Assembly (NCBI GenBank): GCA_017937385.1
Contig: JAGBDR010000055.1
Span: 1 to 54,969 of the forward strand
Source of the DNA: Parabacteroides sp.
GTDB lineage: Bacteria; Bacteroidota; Bacteroidia; Bacteroidales; Tannerellaceae
Reading direction: 5' to 3'
Length of the DNA: 54,969 bases
In this document: piece by piece, positions 4,009 through 53,545 of the stretch
Position numbering within the stretch: position 1 is the stretch's first letter
Layout of the letters: every line of letters starts with the position of its first letter
The notes under the pieces: model-generated
Told to the model about the DNA's origin: nothing
Seen by the model: the letters and a program-made list of their open reading frames with translations, nothing else
Databases searched by the model: none
Program-made: the position numbers and the translations under genes

Positions 4009-4093
4009 CAATTGACAATTGATACTGGACAATTGACAATTAAAGGGACAGAGACAACATAGTTGTCAATTGTCCATCGCCAATTGTCCGTTG
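4009..4093. repeat. Inverted ATTGACA heptamer array
   Basis: The left arm (4009-4042) carries ATTGACA-type 7-bp units and the right arm (4063-4093) carries the complementary TTGTCAA-type units, with a 20-bp spacer. It can form a long imperfect hairpin between the unknown gene ending at 4095 and the rsmI start at 3998. Related arrays are at 6391, 33767 and 42738. Confidence 0.8.
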
Positions 4094-4094
4094 T

Positions 4095-4883
4095 TTAGAG
4101 GAAACGTTTTTCAAGCAGTTTGATAAAGTCTGCGACAGCTTCGTCTTCTATATTCCACTTTAATTCGTCATTCAAGTATGCGACCGATTCTTCATACGAA
4201 TGAAGATCGTTCAGGTCGCTGATCGCTTTATTCATCCGTGCCTCATCGCCTCCGAATAGTTCTCGACGGAAACGGAAACGGTCGTTCAGGCTGAATGCCT
4301 TCCGGAAATCGGAAAGATTTTTCTTTTCCAACAGGTCGTTGAGGAATAATCCGGTACGTTCCGTGGAAACGGGAATCGGATCCGGTTTGGTCGGAGTTTC
4401 TTTTCCTGCGGGAATTTCCGGTTCGATCACCTCAGCGGGAGCCATGGCAGGAGCTGGCTGCACGACGATCGGCTCTTCCACGGGTATTTCCTTTTGGGAA
4501 ACCTCTGTTACGGCCGTTTCTGTTACAGCCTGCCTGATTTCCGGTTCGTCATGGGCCGACTCCGCTTCTTCCGGTTCCGCTTTTGCCGGAATCGGATTGG
4601 AGACCAGAACGGGGATTTCCGGTTCTGTCTGCATCGGGATCGGGGTGACAACCGGTGAAGGAATGGATTGGATCAAGGCCTGATGCTCTTCCATTTGTTT
4701 CCGCAACGCTTCGATCTGAATGGTTTCCAAAGCATGGATATCTTTCAAGATCTTGTGCGTGAGGTCGAAAGTCTGTCCGAAAAACGATACCGGATACACT
4801 TCTGCATTCCGCATTCCGGCAACCAACCGTTCAAGTTCCCGGATATCTAAAAGCAGATTGTCTATTTTTTCTCTATTTACCAT
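4095..4883 (-). CDS. Conserved unknown protein, Pro/Glu-rich linker
   Basis: 262 aa from the ATG at 4883; a TTG 12 nt upstream is in frame but less likely. No signal peptide or membrane segment. Residues about 1-70 are helical, about 70-180 are a low-complexity Pro/Glu/Val linker, and the last 80 residues form a compact acidic/aromatic helical domain with RFRFRRELFGGDEARMNKAI. I recall this C-terminal pattern in many uncharacterised Bacteroidetes proteins, but it has no function I can name. It is encoded between pepD (33-nt gap) and rsmI, so it is probably cotranscribed with both. Confidence 0.75.
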   Translation of the reverse strand: MVNREKIDNLLLDIRELERLVAGMRNAEVYPVSFFGQTFDLTHKILKDIHALETIQIEALRKQMEEHQALIQSIPSPVVTPIPMQTEPEIPVLVSNPIPAKAEPEEAESAHDEPEIRQAVTETAVTEVSQKEIPVEEPIVVQPAPAMAPAEVIEPEIPAGKETPTKPDPIPVSTERTGLFLNDLLEKKNLSDFRKAFSLNDRFRFRRELFGGDEARMNKAISDLNDLHSYEESVAYLNDELKWNIEDEAVADFIKLLEKRFL

Positions 4884-4916
4884 TGTGCCATGCAAATTTT
4901 AATGCGGTTGTTCGGG

Positions 4917-6371
4917 TCAAATTCTCGCAAGCGTTGTCACGATAAAGTCCCACGTACGGGCTACGGACGGGATGCTGACACGTTCGTCAGGAGAATGCGG
5001 GTGCTGCAAGTCCGGACCGATAGAGATCATGTCCATGGCAGGATAGGCTTCCTGGATGATACCACATTCCAGACCGGCATGCATCACTTTCGCTTCCGGT
5101 TTCTTCCCATACAGATCCAAATAGGCTTGCTGCATGATTTTCAAGATCGGTGAATCGATATTCGGTTGCCATCCACCGTAACCATCCGAATATTCCACTT
5201 TGGCCCCAGCCAGGGAGAATACACTTTCCAAGCTCGAACAAACAGCCTCCTTACGGCTCTCAGACGAACTACGCACCAAAATCTGGATCTCGATCATCTC
5301 GTCCGAAGACTTGACGATAGCCAGGTTGGTAGACGATTCGACCGTACCTGGAAAATCGGCCAACATACTGATCACCCCATTCTGGCAAGCCTCTATCGCA
5401 TTGATCAGGTCGTCTTGAATCTCTTCCGGAATCAGCGTGGCCGGCATATCGGTCATTTCGGCCGTAAAATCAATCTTATGTTCAATGCCCTTATATTCGG
5501 TGCGGTATATTTCCTGGTAATCGGAAACCAGTTCCCAAAGCGCCTCCACATTGTCGCCCGGAATCGTCAGGACAGCAAAAGCCTCACGCGGGATCGCATT
5601 GCGCAGCGAACCGCCTTCGATAGACGACAGACGAGCCCCATAGTCGCGCACGGCCTCTTTCAAGAAACGGAACATCAGCTTATTCGCATTCGCACGTCCC
5701 AAATGGATATCCACACCGGAATGGCCGCCTTTCAAACCGGTCAGACTGATTTTCACGGCGACATCGCCTTCCGGGATATAGGTATCTTCCTTAAATTGCA
5801 TGGAAACATTCAGATCGGCACCGCCGGCACAACCGACAAATAACTCGCCCTCTTCTTCCGAATCACAGTTCAACAGGATTTCCCCTTTCAGGAAACCCGG
5901 CTTCAAACCGACCGCTCCATCCATTCCCACCTCTTCGTTGATGGTGAAAAGAGCTTCCAAGGGACCGTGCTTCAGCGTTTTGTCGGCCAAGACAGCCATG
6001 GCGAAAGCGGCACCCATCCCGTTATCGGCACCCAATGTCGTCTCGCGTGCCTTCACCCAATCGCCCTCTATGTAAGCATCGATCGGATCGGTCAGGAAAT
6101 CATGTTTGACCGAAGAGTTCTTCTGCGGGACCATATCGAGGTGGGATTGCATGGTCACGGCTTTGTGTCCTTCCATCCCCGGAAAAGCCGGTTTACGAAT
6201 CAAAACGTTTCCCACTTCGTCCTGCAAGGTTTCCAATCCCAAACCTTTACCAAAAGCTACCATAAAACGGGTTACAGCCTCCATGTGTCCGGTTGGACGG
6301 GGGATTTGCGTAAGGTCATAGAAATACCCCCAGACAGGCTGCGGAGAAAGATTCTTGATTTCTGCGGACAT
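4917..6371 (-). CDS. pepD: Aminoacyl-histidine dipeptidase (M20)
   Basis: 484 aa, the usual size of PepD (carnosinase-type, M20 family), a cytosolic zinc dipeptidase that prefers Xaa-His peptides. Metal-binding segments appear in order: QSHLDMVPQ (His, Asp), TLGADNGMGAA (bridging Asp), NEEVGMDGA (catalytic Glu and ligand Glu), NCDSEEEGE (Asp) and HAGLECG (final His). The dimerisation lid lies between the last two. The start ATG at 6371 is preceded by the heptamer array that also forms the 3' end of the upstream flippase gene. The family call is secure; physiological substrates are not visible from sequence. Confidence 0.93.
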   Translation of the reverse strand: MSAEIKNLSPQPVWGYFYDLTQIPRPTGHMEAVTRFMVAFGKGLGLETLQDEVGNVLIRKPAFPGMEGHKAVTMQSHLDMVPQKNSSVKHDFLTDPIDAYIEGDWVKARETTLGADNGMGAAFAMAVLADKTLKHGPLEALFTINEEVGMDGAVGLKPGFLKGEILLNCDSEEEGELFVGCAGGADLNVSMQFKEDTYIPEGDVAVKISLTGLKGGHSGVDIHLGRANANKLMFRFLKEAVRDYGARLSSIEGGSLRNAIPREAFAVLTIPGDNVEALWELVSDYQEIYRTEYKGIEHKIDFTAEMTDMPATLIPEEIQDDLINAIEACQNGVISMLADFPGTVESSTNLAIVKSSDEMIEIQILVRSSSESRKEAVCSSLESVFSLAGAKVEYSDGYGGWQPNIDSPILKIMQQAYLDLYGKKPEAKVMHAGLECGIIQEAYPAMDMISIGPDLQHPHSPDERVSIPSVARTWDFIVTTLARI

Positions 6372-6390
6372 AATAAAACTACGTTTTTAA

Positions 6391-6496
6391 ATTGACAATT
6401 GACAATGGGCAATTGACAATTAGGTTGATAATAAATTATATATTGAATTGGCAACCGGACATTTAATTGTCAATTATCAATTGTCCATTGTCAATT
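6391..6496. repeat. Inverted ATTGACA heptamer array
   Basis: Left arm 6391-6421 has about four 7-bp units (ATTGACA, ATTGACA, ATGGGCA, ATTGACA). Right arm 6464-6496 has TTGTCAA-type units. The right arm overlaps the 3' end of the flippase gene and encodes its last residues and stop. Confidence 0.82.
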
Positions 6497-7491
6497 TGAA
6501 CCGAATCCTTTCGATTCGCAAGGGGTAGCGCCACCACGCCGAACAGCCCCGTCAATCCGAGCCAGGCTGTTTGCACCGTATGCACCACCAAAGCAAAAGC
6601 CGCCGCATCGGTTTCCTTTACTCCGAAGCACATCAAGGTGGCGATCACCATAAAATGCCACGGACCGATACCTCCTTGGACAGGCACAGCCACAGCAATA
6701 CTGCTCATCGTAAAAGCAATCAGACCGACCGTCACGCCCAAGTCGCGGGTAAAGTCGAAAGCATAGAACGTGATGTAGAAATACAGGAAATATCCTGTCC
6801 AGATCAACAAGGTCTGTATCACGAAAAGCCCTTTCCGTCTCATCAGCCAGACGCTCTTCATTCCGATCCAGACATTCTGCAACATCGACTTCGCTTTCTT
6901 GACCAGCGTAAAGTTACTCATATATGTGAATACAAACCAAATTCCGGCTATAAAAATTACGCCAGCCACATAAATCCATATCGAATTGAACATCGACTGG
7001 AAACCATCCAGCAACGCCGGGTTCTTCGCAAAGAAGCTGTGGAAGAAGTCAAAATTGAAGACAATGATGGACAGAGTGATCAGCCCGACCATGACAGTAT
7101 CGCTCACCCGGTCGATCAGCAATGTCCCCAAAAGGCGGGTAAAGGGGATTTTGTCATACTTCGTTATCATCCCGCAACGCCAGACTTCGCCGACACGCGG
7201 CAGCACAAGGTTCACGGCATAATTCCCCAACACGGCATAAATCACATTGCCAGTCTTCACCCGATTGCCTAACGAGCGGATCAGCAACCCCCAACGTAAT
7301 CCGCGAACCACATTGGCACCCAGGCCGAACAAAAGGGAGAAAAGAATAATCTCGTAGCGGACTCCCCGGCGGATCACATTCCAGATCTCGCCGATATCCA
7401 TTTTACTGTATAAATACCAAAGAAGCAAACAGCCGAAAACAAGCGGAAGAATTATCTTGAGAAACGTGCGTAGAATTGCTTTAAAATCCAT
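6463..7491 (-). CDS. Flippase-like (LPG synthase TM domain) protein
   Basis: 342 aa polytopic inner-membrane protein with about eight hydrophobic segments and the AglD/MprF-like transmembrane pattern (UPF0104), seen in VLPRVGEVWRCGMITKYD near residue 110 and VPVQGGIGPWHFMV near residue 270. Relatives without a synthase domain are thought to move lipids across the membrane or to support lipid modification; the role here is unproven. The C-terminal tail [10 protein letters not shown] is encoded by the ATTGACA heptamer array, so the native stop has probably been replaced. It starts the minus-strand run leading to pepD and is divergent from rsmA, with 95 bp between the two start codons. Confidence 0.85.
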   Translation of the reverse strand: MDFKAILRTFLKIILPLVFGCLLLWYLYSKMDIGEIWNVIRRGVRYEIILFSLLFGLGANVVRGLRWGLLIRSLGNRVKTGNVIYAVLGNYAVNLVLPRVGEVWRCGMITKYDKIPFTRLLGTLLIDRVSDTVMVGLITLSIIVFNFDFFHSFFAKNPALLDGFQSMFNSIWIYVAGVIFIAGIWFVFTYMSNFTLVKKAKSMLQNVWIGMKSVWLMRRKGLFVIQTLLIWTGYFLYFYITFYAFDFTRDLGVTVGLIAFTMSSIAVAVPVQGGIGPWHFMVIATLMCFGVKETDAAAFALVVHTVQTAWLGLTGLFGVVALPLANRKDSVQIDNGQLIIDN

Positions 7492-7521
7492 TATGCGTAG
7501 ATAAGTTTAAATTATTTGTTG

Positions 7522-7529
7522 TATTTTTG
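7522..7529 (+). promoter_or_regulatory. rsmA -7 box
   Basis: TATTTTTG matches TAnnTTTG. Initiation near 7536 gives a leader of about 50 nt and rules out the in-frame TTG at 7527 as the rsmA start. No clear -33 box is visible. Confidence 0.55.
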
Positions 7530-7586
7530 TACGTTGCAAAGATAAGCATTATATTTAAATACGAACACATTACACCCAAGAAGTGG

Positions 7587-8372
7587 ATGAGATTAGTTAA
7601 GCCAAAGAAAGCATTAGGACAACATTTCCTGAAAGATCTGCAAATTGCTGAACGCATTGCAGATACATTGTCCGATTACAAGCAGTTGCCTGTATTGGAA
7701 ATAGGCCCTGGGATGGGCGTCCTCACCCAATTCTTACTGGAAAAAGGACACGATCTGACAGTCGTAGAGCTGGATATGGAATCGGTCGATTACCTGGAAC
7801 AGCACTTCCCTGCCCTGGATGGTAAAATTCTGGCTGAAGACTTCCTGCGCCTGGATCTCGGCCGGTTATTTCCGGAGCCGTTTTGCGTAATCGGCAACTA
7901 TCCTTACAACATATCCAGCCAGATATTTTTCAAAGTGCTCGACTACAAGGAACAGATTCCCTGCTGTTCGGGCATGATCCAGAAAGAGGTCGCCGAACGC
8001 CTTGCCGCCGGTCCGGGCAGTAAGACATACGGCATCCTGAGCGTCCTGCTGCAAGCCTGGTATGAAGTGGAATATCTGTTTACAGTCAGTGAACACGTCT
8101 TCGATCCGCCTCCAAAGGTCAAGAGTGCGGTGATACGGATGGTACGCAACGGCCGGACATCATTGGGATGCGACGAGAAGCTGTTCAAAATCGTGGTCAA
8201 AACCTCCTTCAACCAACGCCGCAAAACCCTGCGCAACTCCATGAAACCGTTGTTAGGCAAGGATTGCCCCGATTATTCGCTTCCGATCTTCGACAAACGA
8301 CCGGAGCAACTTTCCGTAGAACAGTTCGTGGAACTGACACGGATAACAGAGCGGAACTTACAGGATTTATGA
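7587..8372 (+). CDS. rsmA: 16S rRNA A1518/A1519 dimethyltransferase
   Basis: 261 aa from the ATG at 7587; the reading frame extends upstream to a TTG, but that lies inside the promoter. KsgA/RsmA uses SAM to dimethylate two adjacent adenines in the 3' helix of 16S rRNA during 30S assembly. Motifs in order: KALGQHFLKD at the N-terminus, SAM-binding LEIGPGMGVLT, acidic VVELDMES and catalytic NYPYNISS, then a C-terminal helical domain with FNQRRKTLRN. The final codons GAT TTA TGA lie inside an AATCATA/TTTATGAT repeat array, so the repeat supplies the last residues and stop. Confidence 0.96.
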   Translation: MRLVKPKKALGQHFLKDLQIAERIADTLSDYKQLPVLEIGPGMGVLTQFLLEKGHDLTVVELDMESVDYLEQHFPALDGKILAEDFLRLDLGRLFPEPFCVIGNYPYNISSQIFFKVLDYKEQIPCCSGMIQKEVAERLAAGPGSKTYGILSVLLQAWYEVEYLFTVSEHVFDPPPKVKSAVIRMVRNGRTSLGCDEKLFKIVVKTSFNQRRKTLRNSMKPLLGKDCPDYSLPIFDKRPEQLSVEQFVELTRITERNLQDL

Positions 8373-8470
8373 TTTCAGATTTATGATTTATGACTTATGG
8401 TTTCAAACAGAGGCAGCTTCTTTTATCCGGTCTTCCTGTATTCAAATCATAAATCATAAATCATAAATTT
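8364..8470. repeat. Inverted AATCATA heptamer array
   Basis: Left arm (8364-8397) holds TTTATGA units, right arm (8444-8470) holds AATCATA units, with about 46 bp between. The left arm begins inside rsmA and contains its stop; the right arm ends 9 nt before the mgtE ATG. Confidence 0.82.
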
Positions 8471-8478
8471 CCCAAGAA

Positions 8479-9828
8479 ATGATTGAACTGACGAAAGAAT
8501 ACATAGACAATCTGAAAGACATCATCACGAAGAAAGATGACGCAAAGATCAAAGAGATACTGCACGATCTATATCCGGCAGACATAGCCGAACTCTATCA
8601 GGAGCTTGACTTGCAAGAAGCGATCTATCTCTATATGCTGATGGATGGCGAAAAGGCTGCGGATGTCTTGATGGAGCTGGATGAGGAGGACCGCCACAAG
8701 CTGTTGCGGGAACTCCCGAACGAGCTGATCGCCAAACGCTTCGTAGACAACATGGAGACCGACGATGCGGTAGACCTGATGCGTGAGTTGGACGAAGACA
8801 CCCAGGAAGAGATTCTTTCGCACATCGAAGACGTAGAACAGGCAGGTGATATCGTCGACCTGTTGAAATACGACGAAGACACCGCCGGTGGTCTGATGGG
8901 TACCGAAATGATCGTGGTGAACGAGAACTGGAGTATGCCCAAGTGCATCGACGAGATGCGTAAGCAGGCCGAAGACATGGACGAGATCTATTATGTCTAT
9001 GTAGTCGACGATGACGAACGCCTGCGCGGAGTCCTCCCCTTGCAGAAGCTGATCACCAATCCATCCGTCTCGAAGATCAAGCATGTGATGAAGAAAGACC
9101 CGATCTCCGTCCACGAAAGCGACAGTATCGAAGAAGTCACAGAAACGATCGAGAAATATGACCTGGTCGCCCTGCCGGTTATCGACAGCATCGGACGCCT
9201 TATCGGACGCATCACCATTGACGACGTCATGGATGAAGTCCGCGAACAACACGAACGTGACTACCAGTTGGCATCCGGTATCTCGCAGGATGTGGAAACG
9301 TCGGATAACGTCTTCACCCAAACGGCCGCCCGCCTGCCCTGGCTCCTGATCGGTATGATTGGCGGAATCGGCAATTCCTTGATATTGGGTAATTTCGAAA
9401 ACAGTTTCGCCGTCAATCCGAAGATGGCGCTGTTCATCCCGCTGATCGGCGGTACGGGAGGGAATGTCGGTATCCAGTCTTCCGCCATCGTGGTGCAAGG
9501 CCTGGCCAACAACAGTTTGAAGGAAGGGGACATTCTGCCCCAGATATTGAAGGAAGCGGTCGTTTCGCTAATCAACGCCAGCATTATCAGCTTAGTCGTA
9601 TTTATCTACAATTTCTTGATGTTAGGCGACAGGGGCATCACCGCGTCGGTATCTTTAAGCCTGTTTGCAGTCGTGATGTTTGCCAGTATCTTCGGAACAG
9701 TTGTTCCTATGACGCTCGATAAACTGAAGATCGACCCGGCATTGGCCACCGGCCCGTTTATAACCATCACCAACGACATTATCGGCATGATGATTTATAT
9801 GTTTATTGCGTCGGCATTGGCGGGATAA
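8479..9828 (+). CDS. mgtE: Magnesium transporter MgtE
   Basis: 449 aa, the typical MgtE length. An acidic, helical N domain of armadillo-like repeats (about 1-130) is followed by two CBS domains (about 135-255; TAGGLMGTEMIVVNE and VALPVIDSIGRLIG) and five transmembrane helices (about 285-445). The pore signature is seen in PLIGGTGGNVGIQSSA. MgtE dimers form an inner-membrane Mg2+ channel gated by Mg2+ bound between the cytosolic domains. It follows rsmA across an inverted heptamer array and ends at a perfect palindrome shared with the convergent susD gene. Confidence 0.95.
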   Translation: MIELTKEYIDNLKDIITKKDDAKIKEILHDLYPADIAELYQELDLQEAIYLYMLMDGEKAADVLMELDEEDRHKLLRELPNELIAKRFVDNMETDDAVDLMRELDEDTQEEILSHIEDVEQAGDIVDLLKYDEDTAGGLMGTEMIVVNENWSMPKCIDEMRKQAEDMDEIYYVYVVDDDERLRGVLPLQKLITNPSVSKIKHVMKKDPISVHESDSIEEVTETIEKYDLVALPVIDSIGRLIGRITIDDVMDEVREQHERDYQLASGISQDVETSDNVFTQTAARLPWLLIGMIGGIGNSLILGNFENSFAVNPKMALFIPLIGGTGGNVGIQSSAIVVQGLANNSLKEGDILPQILKEAVVSLINASIISLVVFIYNFLMLGDRGITASVSLSLFAVVMFASIFGTVVPMTLDKLKIDPALATGPFITITNDIIGMMIYMFIASALAG

Positions 9829-9838
9829 AATAAAATAT

Positions 9839-9866
9839 GTAGAGGCGCACGGCCGTGCGCCTCTAC
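9839..9866. terminator. 28-bp perfect palindrome between convergent genes
   Basis: GTAGAGGCGCACGG followed by its exact reverse complement, with no spacer. It lies between the mgtE stop (9828) and the susD stop (9873). No T-run follows on either strand, so rho-independent termination is uncertain; it may be a dispersed palindromic repeat. Confidence 0.6.
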
Positions 9867-9872
9867 ACAACA

Positions 9873-16751: not shown

Positions 16752-16939
16752 TTTCCCACTTCGTTTTTCAATCAACCCGGTAACTGCTTACAAAAATACA
16801 AAAAATTATGCAAACGTTCCATACAAACCGTTATTTCCTTTCGCAAGAAGAAGGTTTCAGATTGACAGCCCGATTTTGTGTTCACGGAAAACCGGTTAAA
16901 AATACATAATGTTTCCTGCCGGTTTTAACAGAAAAACGG

Positions 16940-17005
16940 CCATATTAGGGCCGTATTAGGGCCGTTGATCCTCCGTTGTAAGTCCGTTGTAAGTCCGTTT
17001 CCAGC
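16940..17005. repeat. 11-bp-period tandem array
   Basis: Six consecutive 11-bp units each start with CC: CCATATTAGGG, CCGTATTAGGG, CCGTTGATCCT, CCGTTGTAAGT, CCGTTGTAAGT, CCGTTTCCAGC. The period is close to one DNA helical turn, so the CCGT motif recurs on one face of the helix. Confidence 0.7.
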
Positions 17006-17163
17006 GATTGGCGTTAAAATTGCGGTTATTTTTTAACAAAACACCCCTTTTGGGACAGTCGAATGTTAACGCGATTTTAACACGCTTTTTGAAGGGACTG
17101 TTATAAGGAGTGAAGCGCCAATCGGGCCTGTCCGCAAGTAGGACAGATTTTCCACAAAAGAAG

Positions 17164-18898: not shown

Positions 18899-18979
18899 GA
18901 TTTATGATTTATGATTTATGAATTATGCGATGACAAGATAAATCATAAATCTAAAATCATAAATCATAAATCATAAATT
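18899..18979. repeat. Inverted AATCATA heptamer array
   Basis: Left arm 18899-18927 is built of TTTATGA units; right arm 18937-18979 of AATCATA units, with a 9-bp spacer. The arms are nearly perfectly complementary. It lies between the efp stop and the radC ATG (18997), a T-run precedes the left arm, and the hairpin could act as an efp 3' end. Confidence 0.82.
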
Positions 18980-20613: not shown

Positions 20614-20955
20614 CACGACCGTCAACGGTTCGCCCCCCCTTATTTCCAAAAGGGAACAGGATTTTCCCCCTTCCCGACAGACGGTCGTAATGAATGCCCA
20701 TCATAAGGTCCTTACAATGCCCATTCAAGCAACCTGACAATAGGCATTCAAACGACCTTACAATGGGCATCGTCATAAAGAGGCAACTTCCCTCTTTTCA
20801 TTATCAGCAACGAAGAAGGTGTGTCGAAAAGCGCTTGTCAAATGTTTGAATACCCGATTTTATAGTTAGATTGCCTGTTTTTACGGATTCCTTCCTCTCT
20901 TTATGAAATAGAATCTCTATCTTCGTGGTCTAAATAACAAACAAGTACATGTCTC
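20614..20955. other. Intergenic region with 23-bp array
   Basis: No open reading frame with coding features. It contains the four-unit 23-bp array at 20686-20778 and, just before the GH20 gene, an imperfect -7 box TATCTTCG at about 20917. Confidence 0.6.
20686..20778. repeat. Four-unit 23-bp tandem array
   Basis: Cores AATGCCCATC (20693), AATGCCCATT (20716), AATAGGCATT (20739) and AATGGGCATC (20762) are spaced exactly 23 bp. Units 1-2 and 3-4 are in opposite orientation, so the array can fold on itself. Same family as 181-273. Confidence 0.8.
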
Positions 20956-25442: not shown

Positions 25443-25530
25443 GTTTCACCGGCATGGAACTATTGTTTCCCGCCGGTGAAACTTTTGTTTCATGCCCATG
25501 AAACTATTGTTCCATGCCTATGGAACTTCA
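25443..25530. repeat. Four-unit 22-bp palindromic array and terminator
   Basis: Four units of exactly 22 bp begin at 25443, 25465, 25487 and 25509; each is an 18-bp GTTTC...GAAAC palindrome plus a 4-bp spacer such as TATT. Units 1 and 2 also pair over 15 bp (AAAAGTTTCACCGGC with its complement), flanked by A and T runs, so the array probably acts as a bidirectional terminator between two convergent genes. Its last 3 bp are the stop codon of the DUF6249 gene. Confidence 0.85.
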
Positions 25531-31233: not shown

Positions 31234-31321
31234 GTTTCACAGCTGTGAAACAAAAGAAACACAGTTGTGATATAGAAGGAAGACAGTTGTGATACAGAAA
31301 GAACACAACTGTGAAATGAAC
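31234..31321. repeat. Four-unit 22-bp palindromic array
   Basis: Units begin at 31234, 31256, 31278 and 31300. Each is centred on CACAGCTGTG or a variant (CACAGTTGTG, GACAGTTGTG, CACAACTGTG). The first unit is a perfect 18-bp palindrome GTTTCACAGCTGTGAAAC. Period and unit number equal those at 25443 and 43701 although the sequence differs. Confidence 0.82.
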
Positions 31322-33747: not shown

Positions 33748-33766
33748 AATGATAACTGCTTTTTTA

Positions 33767-33791
33767 ATTGACAATGGACAATTGACAATTA
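33767..33791. repeat. Single-arm ATTGACA heptamer array
   Basis: ATTGACA, ATGGACA, ATTGACA, ATTA in tandem between cydA and cydB. No complementary arm is present; instead an AATTAAAG-type repeat stretch (about 33830-33862, read on minus) runs into the cydA stop, so the two sides belong to different repeat families. Confidence 0.65.
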
Positions 33792-42730: not shown

Positions 42731-42737
42731 ATTTTTT

Positions 42738-42858
42738 CAATTGAAAATTGACAATGGACAATTGACAATTAAAATACAACAAGTTTCAAAATAATAATTG
42801 GATACTTAGAACACAGCGACAAAATAATTGTCAATTGTCAATTATCAATTGTCCATTG
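42738..42858. repeat. Inverted ATTGACA heptamer array
   Basis: Left arm 42738-42771, right arm 42827-42858, about 55 bp between. The right arm contains the last codons and stop of surE; the left arm ends 7 nt before the lpxB start (read on minus). Confidence 0.82.
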
Positions 42859-43611: not shown

Positions 43612-43700
43612 CTTATCATGTTTATTTGTACACAAATATATACGCAAAATCCCAAAGTCCCCCGCCAGCTTCCAAGACTTTCTCTCGGCAAGGGAACAAA

Positions 43701-43788
43701 GTTCCATAAGCATGGAACTATATTCTCATGGGCATGAAACTAAATTCCCATAGGCATGGGACTAAAATCCCATAAGCATGAAACACGA
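43701..43788. repeat. Four-unit 22-bp palindromic array
   Basis: Units start at 43701, 43723, 43745 and 43767; each holds an 18-bp palindrome-like core such as GTTCCATAAGCATGGAAC plus a 4-bp spacer (TATA, TAAA, TAAA, ACGA). The core is clearly related to that at 25443-25530 (GTTYCATGCCYATGRAAC). Confidence 0.83.
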
Positions 43789-43828
43789 AGACGATGACGG
43801 AGGAAACAGACTTCCGTTACCGTCTTCC

Positions 43829-43895
43829 ATATAAAAAGCGCAGACTAACGCAGACTTATCCGTTATCGCCAATAACGTCTGCGTTACCCTGCGCT
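43829..43895 (-). terminator. Long-hairpin terminator of rprXY
   Basis: Three stacked stems pair symmetrically: AGCGCAG/CTGCGCT (43837-43843, 43889-43895), AACGCAGAC/GTCTGCGTT (43847-43855, 43877-43885) and GTTAT/ATAAC (43862-43866, 43872-43876). On minus it is followed by TTTTTAT. It lies 33 bp after the rprY stop. Confidence 0.85.
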
Positions 43896-43927
43896 CGCCC
43901 GACGCAGTTCACGTCCGGCCAATCCGA

Positions 43928-44659: not shown

Positions 44660-44661
44660 AA

Positions 44662-46215: not shown

Positions 46216-46529
46216 ATCAATAAATCTCTCGTTTTAATATCGCAAATAACGCGTCTTTTAATTTAATATTTACACAAAAAAAGTAAAAACAGAATATCAG
46301 TTATGTTAAAAATATATTACCAAATAAAGACTATTCTCCTTATATCTGTTTTTAAACTAAAGTTTTACCGTTCTCCAAAGGTCTATTACCTGACCTTATA
46401 CGTTCCGTACTAATTAATAAGAACAAAAACACAACGCGAATTGTTGCAGCCGGTACTCAAAAACTTTTCCCGAAAGTATTGACATTTAATTATTAACTCT
46501 ATCTTTGTCTTTTGTAAGAGTTTCGTAAA
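46216..46529. other. Divergent promoter region rprX / glsA
   Basis: AT-rich with no coding sequence. Carries the glsA promoter on plus; the rprX promoter on minus could not be pinned down. Confidence 0.5.
46479..46507 (+). promoter_or_regulatory. glsA promoter
   Basis: TTG (46479-46481), 18 bp, TATCTTTG (46500-46507). Start near 46514, leader about 16 nt. Confidence 0.65.
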
Positions 46530-47354
46530 ATGACACAAGAAAGCATTACACAGATAGACATCAGACAGGTATTACAGCAAAAGGCGCCTTCGGCTGCCCG
46601 CAAGATACCCGGCTTTGTGGTCGACTATCTGATCCGTACGGTTCATCAGGATGAACTGAACGACATCCTCCGCCGGTATCACGACAAAGACGGAGTCGCG
46701 TTCATGCAAGAACTGATCGGATATTTCGACTTGAATCTGGAGCTGGTCCATGAAGAGCATATTCCTGTCGCAGGACGGTACATATTCGCCTCCAACCATC
46801 CGTTAGGCGGACTGGACGGGATTTGCCTGTCGGCCATTATCGGCAGACGTTTCGACGGGAAGATCCGCTATTTGGTGAATGACTTGTTGCTCTACCTGCC
46901 TAATCTGAGATCGATCTTCGTCCCCATCAACAAACACGGGGCACAGGGGAAAAAGAACGCCGAGCTGATCGAAGAGGCATACGCTTCGGACAACCAGATC
47001 ATCACATTCCCCGCCGGCTTGTGTTCACGCAGACAAAACGGGAAGATACAAGATACCGAATGGAAGAAGTCATTCATCCAAAAGGCCGTACAATACAAAC
47101 GGGATGTCGTGCCGGTCTTTTTCGAAGGGCGTAACTCCAACTTTTTCTACCGTCTCGCCAACCTGCGGAAAGCCTTGGGCATACGGATGAATTACGAAAT
47201 GATCTACCTGCCCGACGAGATGTTCAAAAGCAAACACAAGACATACCGGGTCCATTTCGGGAAACCGATCCCCTGGCAAACCTTCGACAACAGCCGTAAA
47301 CCGACCGAGTGGGCTGCGTGGATGAAGGAAGTGGTCTATAACCTAAAGAAATAA
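46530..47354 (+). CDS. glsA: Glycine-lipid O-acyltransferase (PlsC-like)
   Basis: 274 aa with the acyltransferase HX4D motif in SNHPLGGLDGICLSA near residues 90-104 and a later substrate-binding segment ITFPAGLCSRRQNGK. It is followed by an OlsB-like N-acyltransferase gene at 13 nt. This order and pairing match the Bacteroides thetaiotaomicron glsA/glsB genes, which make glycine lipids, with GlsA adding the second acyl chain to N-acyl-3-hydroxy-fatty-acyl glycine. An ordinary 1-acyl-glycerol-phosphate acyltransferase is the alternative; the linkage favours glycine lipids. Confidence 0.86.
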   Translation: MTQESITQIDIRQVLQQKAPSAARKIPGFVVDYLIRTVHQDELNDILRRYHDKDGVAFMQELIGYFDLNLELVHEEHIPVAGRYIFASNHPLGGLDGICLSAIIGRRFDGKIRYLVNDLLLYLPNLRSIFVPINKHGAQGKKNAELIEEAYASDNQIITFPAGLCSRRQNGKIQDTEWKKSFIQKAVQYKRDVVPVFFEGRNSNFFYRLANLRKALGIRMNYEMIYLPDEMFKSKHKTYRVHFGKPIPWQTFDNSRKPTEWAAWMKEVVYNLKK

Positions 47355-47367
47355 TTGATTTTACTAT

Positions 47368-48345
47368 ATGCAAGACATTATCAAACCGATTGACCGTGCT
47401 CTCCTGAAAGCTGAACTGACAGAGGACAAGAAGCTGCGGAGGACCAACAAATCCAATAACGAAATATATATCGTCACGGCCCACGACTCTCCCAACGTCA
47501 TGCAAGAGATCGGACGGCTCAGGGAAATCGCTTTCCGGTACTACGGAGGCGGGACCGGCTTTCCGGTCGATATCGACGAGTACGACACGATGGACGATGC
47601 ATACCGCCAGCTGATCGTATGGAGTCCTGAAGATGAACAGATTTTAGGCGGCTACCGCTTCCTCTGCGGCTCGGATGTAAAATTCGACGAGGCCGGCAAA
47701 CCGGTTTTAGCTACATCCCATCTGTTCAATTTCTCCGATACGTTCAAGAAAGATTATTTGCCGTACACAGTCGAATTGGGCCGTTCGTTCGTGACGCTGG
47801 AATACCAGTCAACCCGCAGCGGCAACGCGAAAGGGCTGTTCGTGCTGGATAATCTTTGGGACGGCTTGGGAGCTCTTTCCGTCGTAGACCCCAGTTTGCA
47901 ATACTATTTCGGAAAAGTGACGATGTATAACACCTACAACTCCGAAGCCCGCAACATGATCCTGTATTTCCTGAACATGCACTTCCCCGACCCGGACAAA
48001 CTGATCACTCCAGTCTGCCCGCTGGAAACAGGCACAGACCTGAAAAAGATGCAGGAGCTTTTCAAGTATGACAACTTCAAGGACAATTATAAGGTGTTGA
48101 ACCAGGAGGTCCGCAAGTTCGGCATCAACGTGCCTCCATTGGTCAATGCGTACATGAGCCTCTCTCCTAAGATGCGCGTGTTCGGCACGGCGATCAACCA
48201 TGAGTTTGGTGAAGTGGAAGAGACCGGCATCCTGATTGCCATCAACGAAATCTTGGAAGAGAAGAAGAAACGCCATATCGAAACCTACCTGAACGAGGAG
48301 GGCAAATCGGCCGATCTGATACGCAAGACTGACATTTCCGATTGA
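47368..48345 (+). CDS. glsB: Glycine N-acyltransferase (GNAT/OlsB-like)
   Basis: 325 aa with an acyltransferase-type GNAT fold: LREIAFRYYGGGTGFPVDID near 50-70, ILGGYRFLCGSDV near 90, and VELGRSFVTLEYQSTRSG near 137-154 are typical of OlsB/hemolysin-like N-acyltransferases. In the glycine-lipid pathway GlsB joins a 3-hydroxy fatty acid to glycine, the first step. It is coupled to the upstream glsA gene. Annotated in many genomes simply as GNAT or putative hemolysin. Confidence 0.87.
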   Translation: MQDIIKPIDRALLKAELTEDKKLRRTNKSNNEIYIVTAHDSPNVMQEIGRLREIAFRYYGGGTGFPVDIDEYDTMDDAYRQLIVWSPEDEQILGGYRFLCGSDVKFDEAGKPVLATSHLFNFSDTFKKDYLPYTVELGRSFVTLEYQSTRSGNAKGLFVLDNLWDGLGALSVVDPSLQYYFGKVTMYNTYNSEARNMILYFLNMHFPDPDKLITPVCPLETGTDLKKMQELFKYDNFKDNYKVLNQEVRKFGINVPPLVNAYMSLSPKMRVFGTAINHEFGEVEETGILIAINEILEEKKKRHIETYLNEEGKSADLIRKTDISD

Positions 48346-48359
48346 CAACATATTATCCC

Positions 48360-51236
48360 ATGAAAATAATAACGACATTAGCCGGCTTGTTACTTTGCCT
48401 GACCCTTTGCGGACAGACGGAAAGACAGACTGTGAAAAAACCGAAGTTTTCAGGCTATCTGTTCGCCTATTTCGAAGGCAGCGGAGACGAAAAACTACAG
48501 GAACAGTTGCGTTTCGCTGTGAGTGAAGACGCAAAAAATTGGTATGCATTAAATGGTAACCGTCCAATTATCGCAAGTGACAGTATCAGCGAGAGCGGTG
48601 GCATTCGCGACCCGCATATCCTGAGAGGCGAAGACGATGCGTTCTACATCGTGGCAACAGACATGATGACGGCAAAGAACGGATGGAAAGAGAATCCGGG
48701 TATTGTGCTGATGCGCTCTACCGACCTCGTCAATTGGTCGCATACGAAAATCAACTTAGGAAAGGATTGGTCGGCATTCTCTGATGCCTACTGGGTATGG
48801 GCTCCGCAGACTATTTACGACCACAAGGCACGTAAATATATGATATATTTCACTTTACAACGTACAGGCGATAACAGACAATCGCTCATCACTTACTATG
48901 CCTATGCCAACCGTGACTTCACGGCTTTCGAAAGCGAACCCCAACCGCTCTTCTCTGCCCAATACGGCAGTATTGACAACGATATCATTTACAAGGATGG
49001 GACTTATCATCTTTTTTACAAAGGGAACACTAAGGATAAAAACGGCAAGGAGATAAAGAATGGTATTCAGCAGGCTGTATCAAAGAACCTGAGAGGCGCA
49101 TGGAAAGAAAATTTCAACTATCTGGATGCTTATGCCGGCACAGAGACACACGTAGAAGGCAGTAGCGTCTTTCCTCTTCACGACGGTAGCGGACAATGGA
49201 TATTGATGTACGACCTTTATGGTAGCGGACGTTACGAATACCAGACCTCAAAGGATTTGGTGAACTTCACAAAAGAGCCGCAGTCTTTTCGTAAAGATTT
49301 TTCCCCTCGCCACGGCTCCGTCATATCTGTAACACAGGATGAATTGGAGCGTATGCAACAAAAATGGGGCTATGTGTTGACCCATACATTTGAGAGCAAC
49401 GGTAATCCTATCATCCGCAACAAACATACGGCTGATCCGGCGGTGCTTGTTGAAAATGACACCCTTTGGCTTTTTGCCGGACACGACATGCAAGGCGGCC
49501 AGAATGACTATGTGATGAAAGATTGGTTGCTCTACTCGACAACAGATATGCGTCATTGGACTGAACATCCTTCTCCTTTGCATATCGATGCATTCAAATG
49601 GGCAAAGAGCAAACAGGCCTATGCCGGACACGTCGCCAAGCGCAATGGCAAATATTATTGGTATGTCTCGACAAACTGGTGTGGTATCGGTGTAGCTGTG
49701 AGCGACAAGATTACTGGCCCGTATAAGGATGCACTCGGAAAGCCGCTACTTACCAATGAAGACTGTTTTGCCTCGAAACATAATTGGGCTTGTATCGATC
49801 CGGCCATTTTCATTGACGATGACGGTACGCCTTATATTTTCTGGGGAAACGGTCAATGTTATTATGCCAAACTGAAAGATAATATGCTTGAGATTGACGG
49901 AGAGATCAAGCAAATAGAGGTACCTCGTTTCACTGAAGCTCCTTGGGTACACAAGTATCAAGGCAAGTACTATCTGACCTACGCGACAGAATGGCCGGAA
50001 AAAATCGCCTACGCCATGGCAGACAACATCGGTGGCCCATACGAACATAAAGGTATTATCAGCGAGATGGCCGGCAATTCGAATACGACTCACCCGGCAA
50101 TCGTCAAATTCCGCGACCGTTGGTTGTTTTTCTCCCACAATGGAGGATTGCCGAACGGAACAAGCTATAGCCGCTCAGTCATTGCCGAGCCGTTGTATTA
50201 TAATCCTGACGGCTCTATCCGTAACATTCCGCCTACAGCCGAGGGAGTAAGTGAAATAACGAAGATGGGAGCTTATGTAATGGTTTATCACAAAGATTCC
50301 GACCACAGTCTGCATATGGCACTGAGTCGCGACGGCTATTCATGGAAAGCGGTGAATGGCGACCGTGCTGTGGTCAGCGGTGATACCATTGCACAGCAAC
50401 GAGGCATCCGTGACCCTCATATTTATCGTGCACCTGATGGCACTTTCTATATAGTGGCTACCGACCTGCATATCTTCGCCCAACGCGAAGGGCTGCGTTC
50501 CACCGAATGGGAACGTGACGGCACGGAATACGGTTGGGGAAACAACCGGGGACTGGTATTGATGAAGTCACGCGATCTTATCCATTGGACGCACACCGTT
50601 TGTCGTATCGACAAGACTTTCCCCGAGCATTTCGGCAATCTGGGATGTGCTTGGGCGCCAGAGACAATCCATGACCCAGAGGAAGAACGGTTGATGGTAT
50701 ATTTCACTATCCGGCCGACAGGAAAAGGCAAGACCAAACTGTACTACTCTTATGCCAATAATGACTTCACCGGTTTGGAGACAGAACCGCAGTTGCTCTT
50801 TGAATATCCCGACGAGGAGGTTCAGATTCTTGATGCCGACATTATCCCTATGCCTGACGGCCGTTACTGCATGACTTATTGTTCACAGGATGGTCCCGCC
50901 GGAATCAAAATGGCTATTTCCAACCACATCAACCGAGGCTATAAATATCAACCGTTGCAAATTGACGCCGAGAAAGGTTCATGTGAAGCTCCGACGATGT
51001 ACAAGTTGATCGGTCAAGACCGCTGGCTGTTGATGTATGACATCTTCTCGATCAATCCTCACAATTTCGGCTTCATGGAAACTACAGATTTCAAGACTTT
51101 CCGCCATTTGGGCCATTTCGGAGAAGGCGGTACGAAACGAGACGGCTTCTCCGAACAAAAGCATGGAGCGGTCACTCAGATAACGGAAGAAGAGGCACAG
51201 CGTCTGGAAGATTATTGGAAGGAAAAATCAAAATAA
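48360..51236 (+). CDS. Three-propeller GH43-type glycosidase
   Basis: 958 aa from the ATG at 48360; an in-frame TTG at 48342 overlaps glsB. Signal peptide about 1-18. Three five-bladed propellers follow: about 30-339, 340-630 and 639-952. The outer two are clear duplicates (GIRDPHILRGEDDAFYIVAT versus GIRDPHIYRAPDGTFYIVAT), while the middle one is a distinct GH43 type (TADPAVLVENDTLWLFAG, CIDPAIFIDDDGTPYIFWGN). Each keeps candidate Asp-Asp-Glu acids. GH43 enzymes act mainly on arabinan or xylan side chains; specificity here is unknown. It starts 14 nt after glsB, so it may share that transcript. Confidence 0.88.
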   Translation: MKIITTLAGLLLCLTLCGQTERQTVKKPKFSGYLFAYFEGSGDEKLQEQLRFAVSEDAKNWYALNGNRPIIASDSISESGGIRDPHILRGEDDAFYIVATDMMTAKNGWKENPGIVLMRSTDLVNWSHTKINLGKDWSAFSDAYWVWAPQTIYDHKARKYMIYFTLQRTGDNRQSLITYYAYANRDFTAFESEPQPLFSAQYGSIDNDIIYKDGTYHLFYKGNTKDKNGKEIKNGIQQAVSKNLRGAWKENFNYLDAYAGTETHVEGSSVFPLHDGSGQWILMYDLYGSGRYEYQTSKDLVNFTKEPQSFRKDFSPRHGSVISVTQDELERMQQKWGYVLTHTFESNGNPIIRNKHTADPAVLVENDTLWLFAGHDMQGGQNDYVMKDWLLYSTTDMRHWTEHPSPLHIDAFKWAKSKQAYAGHVAKRNGKYYWYVSTNWCGIGVAVSDKITGPYKDALGKPLLTNEDCFASKHNWACIDPAIFIDDDGTPYIFWGNGQCYYAKLKDNMLEIDGEIKQIEVPRFTEAPWVHKYQGKYYLTYATEWPEKIAYAMADNIGGPYEHKGIISEMAGNSNTTHPAIVKFRDRWLFFSHNGGLPNGTSYSRSVIAEPLYYNPDGSIRNIPPTAEGVSEITKMGAYVMVYHKDSDHSLHMALSRDGYSWKAVNGDRAVVSGDTIAQQRGIRDPHIYRAPDGTFYIVATDLHIFAQREGLRSTEWERDGTEYGWGNNRGLVLMKSRDLIHWTHTVCRIDKTFPEHFGNLGCAWAPETIHDPEEERLMVYFTIRPTGKGKTKLYYSYANNDFTGLETEPQLLFEYPDEEVQILDADIIPMPDGRYCMTYCSQDGPAGIKMAISNHINRGYKYQPLQIDAEKGSCEAPTMYKLIGQDRWLLMYDIFSINPHNFGFMETTDFKTFRHLGHFGEGGTKRDGFSEQKHGAVTQITEEEAQRLEDYWKEKSK

Positions 51237-51257
51237 AGGCACATCAAAATTGCCTCT

Positions 51258-51842
51258 CTACTCCTCGTTCTTCTGCTTTTTCCATTCGACGGCTATCTCT
51301 TCGAGTGCGTCGTACCATTCTTTTCCGAAACGGCGGATCAACGGCTCCTTCAGGAACTTATAGACCGGGAGCGCTTCTTTCTTACCCAATATTTCTGCGA
51401 CCTTGCAAATTTCCCAACGATGATAGTTAACCGCTTCAAAAGTGTCATATTTCTCTACCCGGATCGGGTAAAGATGGCAGGAGACCGGTTTGTAGAAAGA
51501 GAGTTTGCCCTCCCGATAAGCCTTCTCTACCGCACATTTGCAAGTTCCGTCCGCATCGTAACAGGTAAAAACGCAATCCTTGCCATTTACAATGGAGGTT
51601 ACTAAGTCACCCTCTTCATCAATATAGGCAACGCCTTGTTTCTTGATGATCTCCCGGGCTTTCGGCGACAGGTCATCCCAAATGACCGGAAGAGCTTTTT
51701 CCAACTCGCCCACTTCGTCTTCCTGCAAAGGTGCGCCAGAATCACCTTCCACGCAGCAAATACCTTTACAATGTGACAGATCACACAAAAACTGGCGCTC
51801 AAGAACGTCGAGGCTGACTAAGGTATTATCTATTTGTATCAC
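51258..51842 (-). CDS. DUF3109 Cys-rich protein
   Basis: 194 aa, cytosolic. Cys20, Cys25, Cys29 and Cys30 (CDLSHCKGICC) plus later cysteines in DCVFTCYDADGTCKCAVEK, VSCHLYPIRV and WEICKVA suggest a metal or Fe-S site like that of YkgJ-type CxxCxxCC proteins. DUF3109 is widespread in Bacteroidetes with no known function. Converges with the GH43 gene with 21 nt between. It precedes nothing on minus but a spacer to the rest of the window; gpmI lies upstream. Confidence 0.88.
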   Translation of the reverse strand: MIQIDNTLVSLDVLERQFLCDLSHCKGICCVEGDSGAPLQEDEVGELEKALPVIWDDLSPKAREIIKKQGVAYIDEEGDLVTSIVNGKDCVFTCYDADGTCKCAVEKAYREGKLSFYKPVSCHLYPIRVEKYDTFEAVNYHRWEICKVAEILGKKEALPVYKFLKEPLIRRFGKEWYDALEEIAVEWKKQKNEE

Positions 51843-51857
51843 GATGAAAGAAATTAC

Positions 51858-51924
51858 GATTTATGATTTTTGATTTATGATTTATGTTTTTTATGCATAA
51901 ATCATAAATCAAAAATCATAAATC
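51858..51924. repeat. Perfect 29-bp inverted AATCATA array
   Basis: Left arm 51858-51886 and right arm 51896-51924 are exact reverse complements over 29 bp, with a 9-bp spacer. Each is four heptamer-type units, and both carry the same variant unit (TTTTTGA in place of TTTATGA). It fills the whole gap between the gpmI stop and the DUF3109 start. Confidence 0.9.
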
Positions 51925-51925
51925 C

Positions 51926-53443
51926 TTAGTTTTTAATCAAGTCCCGTCCGGTCATCTCACTCGGCTGTTGCATGCCTAAAATGTGTAAGATAGAGGGAGC
52001 GACATCGGCAAGGACACCGTTTTCTACCGTTGCATTTTTGTTTTCTGTCACATAGACAAAAGGAACAGGGTTCAAGGAATGAGCCGTGTTGGGAGTGCCA
52101 TCCTCGTTGAGCGCGTGATCGGCATTACCGTGGTCGGCGATGATGATGACTTCATAGCCGTTTGCCTTGGCAGCTTCAACCGTGTCTTTCACGCAGTTGT
52201 CGATAGCTGTTACCGCCTTTTCGATTGCACTGTAGATACCGGTATGCCCCACCATATCACCGTTGGCATAATTCACGACGATGAAGTCGAACTTCTGCGT
52301 ATGGATAGCCTCAACCAATTTGTCTTTCACTTCGTAAGCGCTCATCTCCGGCTTCAGGTCGTAAGTGGCGACTTTCGGGCTCGGCACCAAAATGCGTTCT
52401 TCCGCTTCATACGGAGTTTCGCGGCCACCGTTAAAGAAGAAAGTCACATGAGCATATTTTTCCGTTTCAGCGATATGAAGTTGTGTCTTGCCGTTATTGG
52501 CCAGATATTCACCAAGCGTATTCTGGACATTTTCCTTGTCGAACAAGATGTGGACACCTTTGAAAGAAGCATCATACGGAGTCATGCAATAATACTGCAA
52601 ACCGGGGATTGTGTGCATACCCTGTTCCGGCATATCTTGCTGAGTCAGCACGACCGTCAATTCTTTCGCACGGTCATTACGGTAGTTGAAGAAGATCACG
52701 ACATCGCCTTCTTTGATCGTGCCGTCTACGGAAGCGTTATTGATCGGCTTGATAAACTCGTCCGTCACACCTTCGTCATACGATTCCTGCATGGCCTGTA
52801 CCATATCGGTTGCCTGTTTACCTTTGCCTTCGATCAACAGGTCGTAGGCTTCTTTCACACGTTCCCAACGTTTGTCGCGGTCCATTGCATAGAAACGGCC
52901 TACGATGGATGCGATCTTTCCGGCAGACTGTGCACAATGGGCCGTCAGTTGTTCGATAAATCCTTTACCGCTCTTCGGGTCTGTGTCGCGACCATCCATG
53001 AAACAGTGGATGAAAGTATTGTCGATTCCGTATTCTTTGGAGATGTCGCAAAGTTTGAACAGGTGGTCGAAAGAACTGTGTACGCCACCATTGGAGGTCA
53101 ACCCCATGAAATGGATATTTTTGCCATGCTCTTTGGCGTAAGAGAAAGCTGAAACGATTTCAGGATTCTTCATGATGCTGTTGTCGGCACAGGCACGGTT
53201 GATCTTCACCAAATCCTGGTAAACGATACGTCCGGCCCCGATATTAAGGTGCCCGACTTCAGAGTTACCCATTTGTCCGTCGGGCAGACCTACGTTTTCA
53301 CCGCTTGCCTGCAACTGCGAATGAGGATAATTAGCCAGCAAACTGTCCCAATAAGGAGTGGGAGTGTTAAAGATTACATCGTCTTTGCCTTGATCGCCGA
53401 TGCCCCAGCCGTCAAGAATCATTAAAAGGGCTTTCTTGCTCAT
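51926..53443 (-). CDS. gpmI: 2,3-bisphosphoglycerate-independent phosphoglycerate mutase
   Basis: 505 aa, standard length. Alkaline-phosphatase superfamily enzyme interconverting 3- and 2-phosphoglycerate in glycolysis, needing two Mn2+. [11 protein letters not shown] carries metal ligand Asp11, and [16 protein letters not shown] carries the phospho-serine Ser61. The inserted transferase domain (about 75-310) includes [12 protein letters not shown]; later ligands are in [12 protein letters not shown] and [12 protein letters not shown]. Its 5' leader contains the degenerate AATCATA array at 53453-53545. Confidence 0.97.
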
Positions 53444-53452
53444 TGTCTTCGT

Positions 53453-53545
53453 GATTTATAATTTATAATTAGGATTTAAAATTTATGATTTATGATTTAT
53501 ACATTGAAGATAAATCACAAATCTTAAATCATAAATCTTAGAATT
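53453..53545. repeat. Degenerate inverted AATCATA array
   Basis: Left arm 53453-53500 with TTTATGA/TTTATAA units, right arm 53509-53545 with AATCATA/AATCTTA units, 8-bp spacer. It sits 9 bp upstream of the gpmI start, within the predicted leader RNA. Confidence 0.75.

Follow-up and report, generated by a model that had tools for sequence, protein, structure and literature searches.

Heptamer-armed hairpins between the genes of a Parabacteroides genome are probably gene-less copies of elements encoding 23S rRNA-intervening-sequence proteins

The intergenic regions of a gut bacterium, Parabacteroides sp. (GCA_017937385.1, contig JAGBDR010000055.1), contain inverted arrays of 7-bp repeats, which raises the question of what these arrays are and how they came to lie between genes. 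The window, meaning the whole stretch of DNA analysed, is 54,969 nt long. It holds eight heptamer arrays; the positions given for them in the original prediction, and the two-arm layout of seven of the eight, were both borne out (Table 1), and the site at 33767-33791 has one arm only. We give a probability of about 0.65 to the reading that they belong to a family of hairpin elements with repeat arms, of which they are copies lacking the gene; the family resembles the intervening sequences (IVS) of 23S rRNA and lies outside rRNA.

Paired arms have a fixed polarity in the Tandem Repeats Finder (TRF) listing. Family 1 runs as (AATTGAC)n followed by (GTCAATT)n and family 2 as (GATTTAT)n followed by (ATAAATC)n, and this polarity is constant across the arm pairs listed for the host. 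One cluster, C90:20388-20459, is mixed, its left arm belonging to family 2 and its right arm to family 1. The spacers of the window copies contain no ORF.

Table 1. Arms of the eight heptamer arrays in the window and observations made at each.
Feature	Position	Observation
Family 1 left arm, site 1	4009..4043	orthologous gap empty in G105, G289, G205
Family 1 right arm, site 1, degenerate	4063..4095	hairpin z -6.4
Family 1 left arm, site 2	6390..6421	array located
Family 1 right arm, site 2	6465..6496	overlaps 3' end of minus-strand frame ending 6463
Family 2 left arm, site 3	8364..8403	overlaps stop codon at 8372
Family 2 right arm, site 3	8444..8468	folds; absent in G105
Family 2 left arm, site 4	18899..18927	array located
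Family 2 right arm, site 4	18938..18978	folds
Single family 1 arm, site 5	33766..33790	array located
Family 1 left arm, site 6	42738..42770	family 1 also in G105, absent in G289
Family 1 right arm, site 6	42826..42858	overlaps stop of minus-strand frame ending 42838
Family 2 left arm, site 7	51858..51890	gap empty in G105
Family 2 right arm, site 7	51896..51924	adjoins stop codon; hairpin z -13.6
Family 2 left arm, site 8	53454..53501	divergent gap
Family 2 right arm, site 8	53510..53540	folds; absent in G105 and G289

A wider search of the host for period-7 arrays, of the kind proposed with the original prediction, covered 448,969 bases and found 67 TRF rows, whereas each of three block-wise Markov shuffles gave 0. 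The canonical units of these rows are AATTGAC (32), AAATCAT (29), AAATTAT (3), AATTATG (2) and AATTGCC (1). Family 1 has 643 matches genome-wide (328 + 315; 25-mer, up to 3 mismatches), and a reversed-pattern control has 0. The arrays had been predicted to sit between genes, and this holds in the host sequence analysed: with gene positions taken from a rough purpose-made gene caller, intergenic sequence makes up 20% of the total and contains 40 of the 43 clusters, and 38 of 41 measured cluster edges lie within -34 to +57 bp of a stop codon. The gaps are tandem in 35 cases, convergent in three and divergent in two, and three clusters fall inside called genes. An avoidance of divergent gaps was considered and rejected (2/40, p 0.08).

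The predicted hairpins are also well founded, since all eight window arrays fold better than every one of 200 shuffles each (z -4.3 to -13.6); the single-arm site folds weakly, at -10.4 kcal/mol. No pairing specific to the two arms of an element emerged. Partner arms complement each other no better than they complement arms from elsewhere in their family (n=10, z +0.86 for family 1; n=14, z -0.59 for family 2), and their local alignment gives no clear signal in the host (z -1.5 for family 1 and 1.1 for family 2), in G304 (1.6) or in G307 (1.3). Several family 2 elements convey to the eye a convincing impression of compensatory change between arms, which we rejected because exchanging the partners does not worsen the folding. 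We likewise rejected the provision of stops in all frames as the reason for a 7-bp unit, as 72 of 86 consensus arrays have them compared with 68.1 +- 3.2 for permuted units.

Comparison of orthologous gaps among related species, a check also suggested at the outset, reveals full, decayed, single-arm and empty states. Unit number varies between orthologues, and one gap may be occupied by different heptamer families in different species. The site 2 gap holds an AGTTGAC-type family in G301 and G329 (by eye), and the site 4 gap holds family 1 in G105 and an AATTACG type in G205. Most elements are common to close species, so little recent movement is seen. At site 7 the orthologous gap of the relative G307 contains AAAATTG-type arms that enclose a PF05635/TIGR02436 gene, which encodes a 23S rRNA-intervening-sequence protein (IVP), annotated as a four helix bundle protein.

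Inverted repeats flank 42 of 51 tested PF05635 genes in Bacteroidales and 12 of 300 ordinary ORFs. The tested genes come from 68 PF05635 matches in 17 of 21 genomes, which were hand-picked, many because they are array-rich; one match was left out as the second fragment of the G304 gene, 16 more are outside the tested set, and the arm test is symmetric with respect to strand. The best lag among the 42 armed genes is 7 in 27 cases and 8 in 11. The association extends to many phyla within one subfamily. A scan of species genomes gave 581 relatives, and among the best 80 of them 75 have inverted arms; many of these relatives are MAG contigs, whose phylum can be misassigned. In the same best 80 of 581, lag-7 identity is at least 0.6 in 63 of the 69 with a score of at least 15, and no other lag is as high; the unit in this subfamily is 7 bp. 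The loop of these elements is about 390 bp and the arms about 33 bp. No significant arms were found at nine of the 51 Bacteroidales genes or at five of the best 80 of 581, and eight further loci in the genus comprise four with period-7 arms, two with arms of another period and two with none. Phages were considered as a vehicle and set aside; 15 relatives lie in viral_contigs.

Heptamer arrays might instead be built in place at hairpins by replication slippage and template switching, with IVP genes merely nearby. The varying unit numbers of orthologues and the existence of single arms would fit such a process, which is nevertheless highly improbable given the contrast between armed IVP genes in the best 80 of 581 and ordinary ORFs, and the small number of unit sequences per genome. 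Arm sequence follows protein sequence: arm distance correlates with protein distance (Mantel r 0.33, 0/2000 permutations, n=76) at loci drawn from these 80 and 15 additional ones, with an arm score of at least 15, lag-7 identity of at least 0.55 and a protein of 80-160 aa, in a test where the averaged unit was set in register against AATTGAC and which favours AATTGAC.

The gene-bearing elements have a position and a direction. In the 62 of the 69 loci with a score of at least 15 that entered this comparison, a stop codon lies at the element edge in 56, compared with 264 of 3100 random placements. It is at the left edge only in 47, at the right only in one and at both in eight, and 55 of the 62 have their left arm at the stop codon of an upstream co-directional gene.

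Both window families arm IVP genes in the same genus as the host, family 1 in G303 and G319 and family 2 in G306, which supports the original proposal that two sequences of one period suggest one mechanism. G319 has three gene-less family 1 pairs and one IVP copy in 140 kb, and G303 is similar. Further heptamer families in relatives (AAAGTTG, AAAATTG, AATTACG and AATTATG) share one architecture with those of the window, and we consider it very likely that all belong to one element family. An IVP ORF lies inside the stem-loop in the relatives' elements and not in the window copies; only gene-less copies are present there, so the linked protein family could not be seen from the window. The window copies otherwise have the inverted arms, the stop-codon position and the arm family of IVP elements in the genus. 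Among the window sites, one is single-armed and another occupies a divergent gap. By eye, the gene-less spacers do not resemble remnants of IVP genes, and non-IVP inverted pairs 200-2500 bp apart, considered as carriers of other cargo, resemble pairs of adjacent elements with other genes between them.

No IVP match was obtained in the host genome, which is the richest in arrays and is 90.5% complete. G105 encodes an IVP with 8-bp arms and has no period-8 rows in 114 kb. Across the order, 29 of 33 family-1-positive genomes contain an IVP, compared with 139 of 262 others. This association is in part circular, since IVP copies armed with family 1 themselves contribute to the family 1 matches; at a threshold of at least eight matches it is 10/13 (p 0.15). 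A genus-level link between array richness and IVP (6/9 compared with 6/29, p 0.016), where richness is a seed-count proxy and the cut was chosen post hoc, was considered and set aside.

Another explanation is that the arrays are regulatory RNA sites. Hairpins in the 3' regions of mRNAs, perhaps bound by IVP, would stabilise, process or terminate transcripts and would persist through selection, without selfish spread, and IVP would regulate itself and many genes. The stop-codon position, the strong hairpins and the sharing of most sites by close species agree with this, as do GC-rich, terminator-like hairpins seen by eye in the gap of site 18899 in congeners lacking the array. Set against it are a patchy distribution (268 matches in the host and 64 and 0 in congeners), a host without an IVP match, the occupation of one gap by different families in different species and arms that are not matched to their partners. 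We regard a regulatory role of this kind as unlikely.

REP/BIME elements, which are associated with RAYT transposases, also form hundreds of intergenic inverted pairs near the 3' ends of genes. If the arrays were of this type, or MITE-like, a conventional transposase would move them and the IVP gene would travel as a passenger; this would account for hundreds of inverted pairs per genome and for presence and absence in orthologous gaps. The arms described here are instead 7-bp tandem repeats linked to PF05635, and they correlate with the IVP protein across phyla. A search that covered one transposase family, Y1_Tnp (PF01797), gave no match in the host, where the control search is positive in 5 of 14 known genomes, and RAYT/REP was set aside on this result. 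Inspection of the orthologous gaps by eye revealed no target-site duplication. Movement by a conventional transposase appears very improbable, slightly more so than slippage.

The comparison with STRR made in the original prediction is of limited use, since the heptamer systems that have been described, cyanobacterial STRR among them, consist of direct repeats. TAACTGA arrays of Beggiatoaceae, cyanobacteria and some Bacteroidetes are described in PMC4679880 as direct arrays upstream of start codons with one inverted case, and the available part of that paper names no linked gene. They share with the present arrays an intergenic location, a 7-bp tandem unit and a patchy occurrence across phyla, whereas seven of the eight window sites are inverted and are not direct arrays lacking an inverted partner. 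The BrickBuilt MITE of Porphyromonas gingivalis, as described in the part of PMC4596501 available, has 12-bp IS5-type terminal repeats and 23-nt internal direct repeats. It is likewise intergenic, inverted and gene-less, contains tandem repeats and varies in presence (between strains); the present elements differ in that tandem repeats make up the arms.

The closest parallel is the 23S IVS described in the portion of PMC4990558 available to us, a sporadic 428-nt sequence, called selfish, with a 28-bp stem and an S23p/IVP ORF in its loop. An ORF of this type in a stem-loop of similar size and sporadic occurrence are common to both. Excision by RNase III is a further trait of the 23S IVS. Unlike the IVS, the present elements have arms of 7-bp tandem repeats, lie at the stop codons of protein genes and include hundreds of gene-less copies; none was located in rRNA in the window (Rfam: one tRNA only) or in 20 IVP loci (Rfam: no family). 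Two of five IVP proteins also give weak profile matches below the cut-off to Avd of diversity-generating retroelements (E 6e-4 and 8e-4), and an Avd-IVP homology is noted in the available text of PMC10053308.

We return to IVS-like elements outside rRNA. A full-length element comprises two inverted arms of 7-bp units around a loop encoding a PF05635 four-helix-bundle protein, and other branches of the protein family have 8-bp and, judged by eye, 10-bp units. Elements adjoin the stop codon of a neighbour, the gene-bearing ones mostly co-directional with that gene. They would spread within genomes, and the gene would decay or be absent while the arms persist; two or more heptamer families can co-occur in one genome. 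That the elements are mobile is probable, at slightly less than our confidence in the reading as a whole. The IVP may act on the arms and help an RNA or single-stranded hairpin copy to insert near stop codons, and the window copies may owe their spread to a protein of this kind, encoded at another place or at an earlier time. A hairpin or mRNA intermediate is a doubtful part of this scheme. Somewhat less doubtfully, though still tentatively, we suggest a new class of mobile element that has no transposase, recombinase or reverse transcriptase of its own, in which a four-helix-bundle protein would recognise heptamer-tiled hairpins and place them directionally at stop codons, perhaps through mRNA. 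The 23S IVS would be the rRNA branch of this class, and its non-autonomous copies would be the gene-less hairpins that number in the hundreds per genome.

Proteins of PF05635/TIGR02436 occur widely, and PMC4990558 and PMC11270868 describe them as functionally uncharacterised. Among open-licence PMC papers we found no account of an IVP gene enclosed by short tandem-repeat arms, and an earlier description elsewhere is possible. The rRNA IVS that encode some IVPs have been called selfish without a mechanism; a link to a hairpin and to a genomic place and direction makes the function of these proteins testable. The same link would make sense of hundreds of so far unexplained repeats between the genes of one gut bacterium.

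The original prediction described eight arrays of two heptamer families, ATTGACA/AATTGAC (family 1) and AATCATA/AAATCAT (family 2), between genes of the window, and all eight are present (see table). Tandem Repeats Finder detects 67 period-7 rows in 448,969 bases of the host genome (the window plus 394 kb more), with units AATTGAC (32), AAATCAT (29) and near variants (6), against none in three block-wise Markov shuffles. Periods 6, 8 and 9 gave 2, 7 and 6 rows. Across the whole host genome a family 1 25-mer has 643 matches with at most three mismatches, and its reversed control has none. In RNA folding the eight window sites give z -4.3 to -13.6.

Array clusters in the 449 kb are intergenic in 40 of 43 cases, as judged from our own codon-usage caller (302 genes, rough starts). 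The gaps that contain them are tandem in 35 cases, convergent in three and divergent in two; available host gaps of at least 30 bp number 167, 27 and 33 respectively. By the same gene calls a stop codon lies -34 to +57 bp from the array edge in 38 of 41 measured edges, and many arrays overlap the stop.

The window also contains separate tandem arrays of 22-23 bp, several of which share a ATGGGCAT/ATGCCCAT core; periods 22 and 23 account for 15 and 9 rows in the 449 kb.

Coordinates of repeat features in the window and in host sequence C90
Feature	Position
Family 1 array	4009-4093
Family 1 array	6391-6496
Family 1 array	33767-33791
Family 1 array	42738-42858
Family 2 array	8364-8470
Family 2 array	18899-18979
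Family 2 array	51858-51924
Family 2 array	53453-53545
22-23 bp tandem array	194-270
22-23 bp tandem array	20710-20770
22-23 bp tandem array	25443-25527
22-23 bp tandem array	31238-31316
22-23 bp tandem array	43693-43784
22-23 bp array in loop of family 2 hairpin	C90:135706-135852
Three short 11-bp tandem duplications, closely spaced	16938-17089
Two to three family 2 units in the L120 gap	C90:136775

Of 295 genomes of the order, 33 carry family 1 and 12 carry family 2; within the genus, matches to family 1 number 268 in the host, 64 in genome G105 and 0 in G289. Sampled relatives contain further heptamer families (AAAGTTG, AAAATTG, AATTACG and AATTATG). The G205 sample (loci L059, L060, L065-L070) has 28 period-7 rows and 12 period-9 tandem rows.

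Arrays are gained or lost, and decay, between species, and the closest species pairs have most elements in common with few differences. The gap of site 4009 has no array in G105, G289 or G205, and at site 6391 an AGTTGAC type occupies the gap in G301 and G329. The gap of site 18899 contains family 2 in the host, G304, G306 and G307, family 1 in G105, an AATTACG type in G205, and by eye GC-rich terminator-like hairpins in G289, G295, G296, G303 and G329. The gap of site 51858 is empty in G105; G304 has family 2 there, G289 a different, hairpin-like sequence, and G307 an open frame between AAAATTG-type arms.

This frame (L135) is a PF05635 gene, encoding a 23S rRNA-intervening-sequence protein (IVP). 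PF05635 is found in 17 of 21 genomes picked by hand, with 68 matches in all. Inverted repeats above the 99th percentile of shuffles join the 350-bp flanks in 42 of the 51 genes tested, the best lag being 7 in 27, 8 in 11 and other in 4. Of 300 ordinary ORFs put through this test, 12 were significant; five scored at least 15, among them the site 51858 IVP gene itself.

Scanning 84,980 species genomes with the alignment of one PF05635 branch (the subfamily) confirmed at least 581 relatives, and all five subfamily proteins checked match PF05635 and TIGR02436 ('four helix bundle protein'). By record labels the best 80 of these are mostly from Bacteroidota, the others including Clostridia, Oscillospiraceae, Richelia, Leptospiraceae, Patescibacteria and Gammaproteobacteria (among them the Alcanivorax jadensis T9 genome). 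Arms are significant in 75 of these 80 and score at least 15 in 69; lag-7 identity reaches 0.6 in 63 of the 69, and no other lag is that high in any. These IVP elements have median arms of 33 bp and a median loop of 389 bp, and the averaged arm unit is A, A/g, T, T/g, G/a, A/t, N. Arm distance grows with protein distance (Mantel r 0.33, 0 of 2000 permutations, n=76). Common descent of whole elements could alone yield this correlation, which therefore establishes that the gene and its arms stay together as a unit but does not establish recognition of the arms by the protein. By eye the arms of elements L279 and L285 have a unit of about 10 bp, and that of 11 other loci is 8 bp, thus unit length differs between branches of the protein family. 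In L112 (G295) an IVP gene between heptamer arms continues in frame, by eye, into an apparent acyl-CoA dehydrogenase.

IVP elements are positioned at stop codons. A frame of at least 100 codons ends within -40 to +60 bp of an outer edge in 56 of 62 elements of the wide scan, compared with 264 of 3100 random placements. The stop is on the left only in 47, the right only in one and both sides in eight, so in these 47 the upstream gene and the IVP gene share one direction. A second count puts the end of such a frame no more than 60 bp from the left edge for 60 loci out of at most 69. Selection would favour this direction if the elements depend on transcription from upstream, and directed insertion is therefore not proved.

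Both window families occur as arms of IVP genes, family 1 in G303 and G319 of the same genus and also in G270 and G217, and family 2 around one gene in G306, of the same genus. G319 has three gene-less family 1 pairs in 140 kb plus one IVP copy; G303 is similar, with three pairs within 2 kb. Gene-less hairpins of the genome's own IVP arm family are also found in G306 (AAAATCAT-type family 2) and G307 (AAAGTTG and AAAATTG). G105 and G205 provide counter-examples: the G105 IVP has 8-bp arms yet the 114 kb sampled there contain no period-8 rows, and of two subfamily copies in G205 one has the AATTATG type of its sample and the other has no exact match. The host genome gave no IVP match. The subfamily is present in 12 of 38 genomes of the genus, and in 29 of 33 family-1-positive genomes of the order versus 139 of 262 others, a comparison in which an IVP copy that has family 1 arms is itself counted as a family 1 match; with at least eight family 1 matches the figure is 10 of 13 (p 0.15).

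Where G306 has the family 2 IVP element L120, G307 has an 8-bp piece, GATAAATC, the host has family 2 units (see table), G304 has short arms on either side of an unrelated GC hairpin, and G105 lacks an array. The AAAGTTG element L121 of G307 is also present in G304, with its IVP frame there broken into two matches; its gap has no array in G105 and a single family 1 arm instead in G306 and the host. The same gaps have therefore been taken by different families, with decay of both genes and arms. In L262 (G304) short family 2 arms enclose a GC-rich insert that resembles a hairpin.

23S rRNA intervening sequences have the protein and stem-loop plan in common with IVP elements (PMC4990558, PMC11270868) but sit in rRNA, which the window and 20 IVP loci scanned do not; TAACTGA arrays are direct repeats (PMC4679880) and BrickBuilt MITEs have IS5-type ends (PMC4596501). 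The open-licence literature searched gave no account of IVP genes between short tandem-repeat arms.

The elements probably spread within genomes; IVP may act on the arms, and gene-less copies may use it in trans. The subfamily matches structure 2rld strongly (E 5e-55) and the more distant XCC0516 structure, 2gsc, weakly (E 0.002); the Xanthomonas protein is described as a homopentamer of four-helix bundles (PMC4990558). Two of five IVP proteins weakly match the retroelement accessory protein Avd, below the profile cut-off, a resemblance pointed out in PMC10053308. Because of these structure matches and the Avd resemblance, we favour, with low confidence, a hairpin or mRNA intermediate as the most likely route, and a polymerase provided in trans would copy it.
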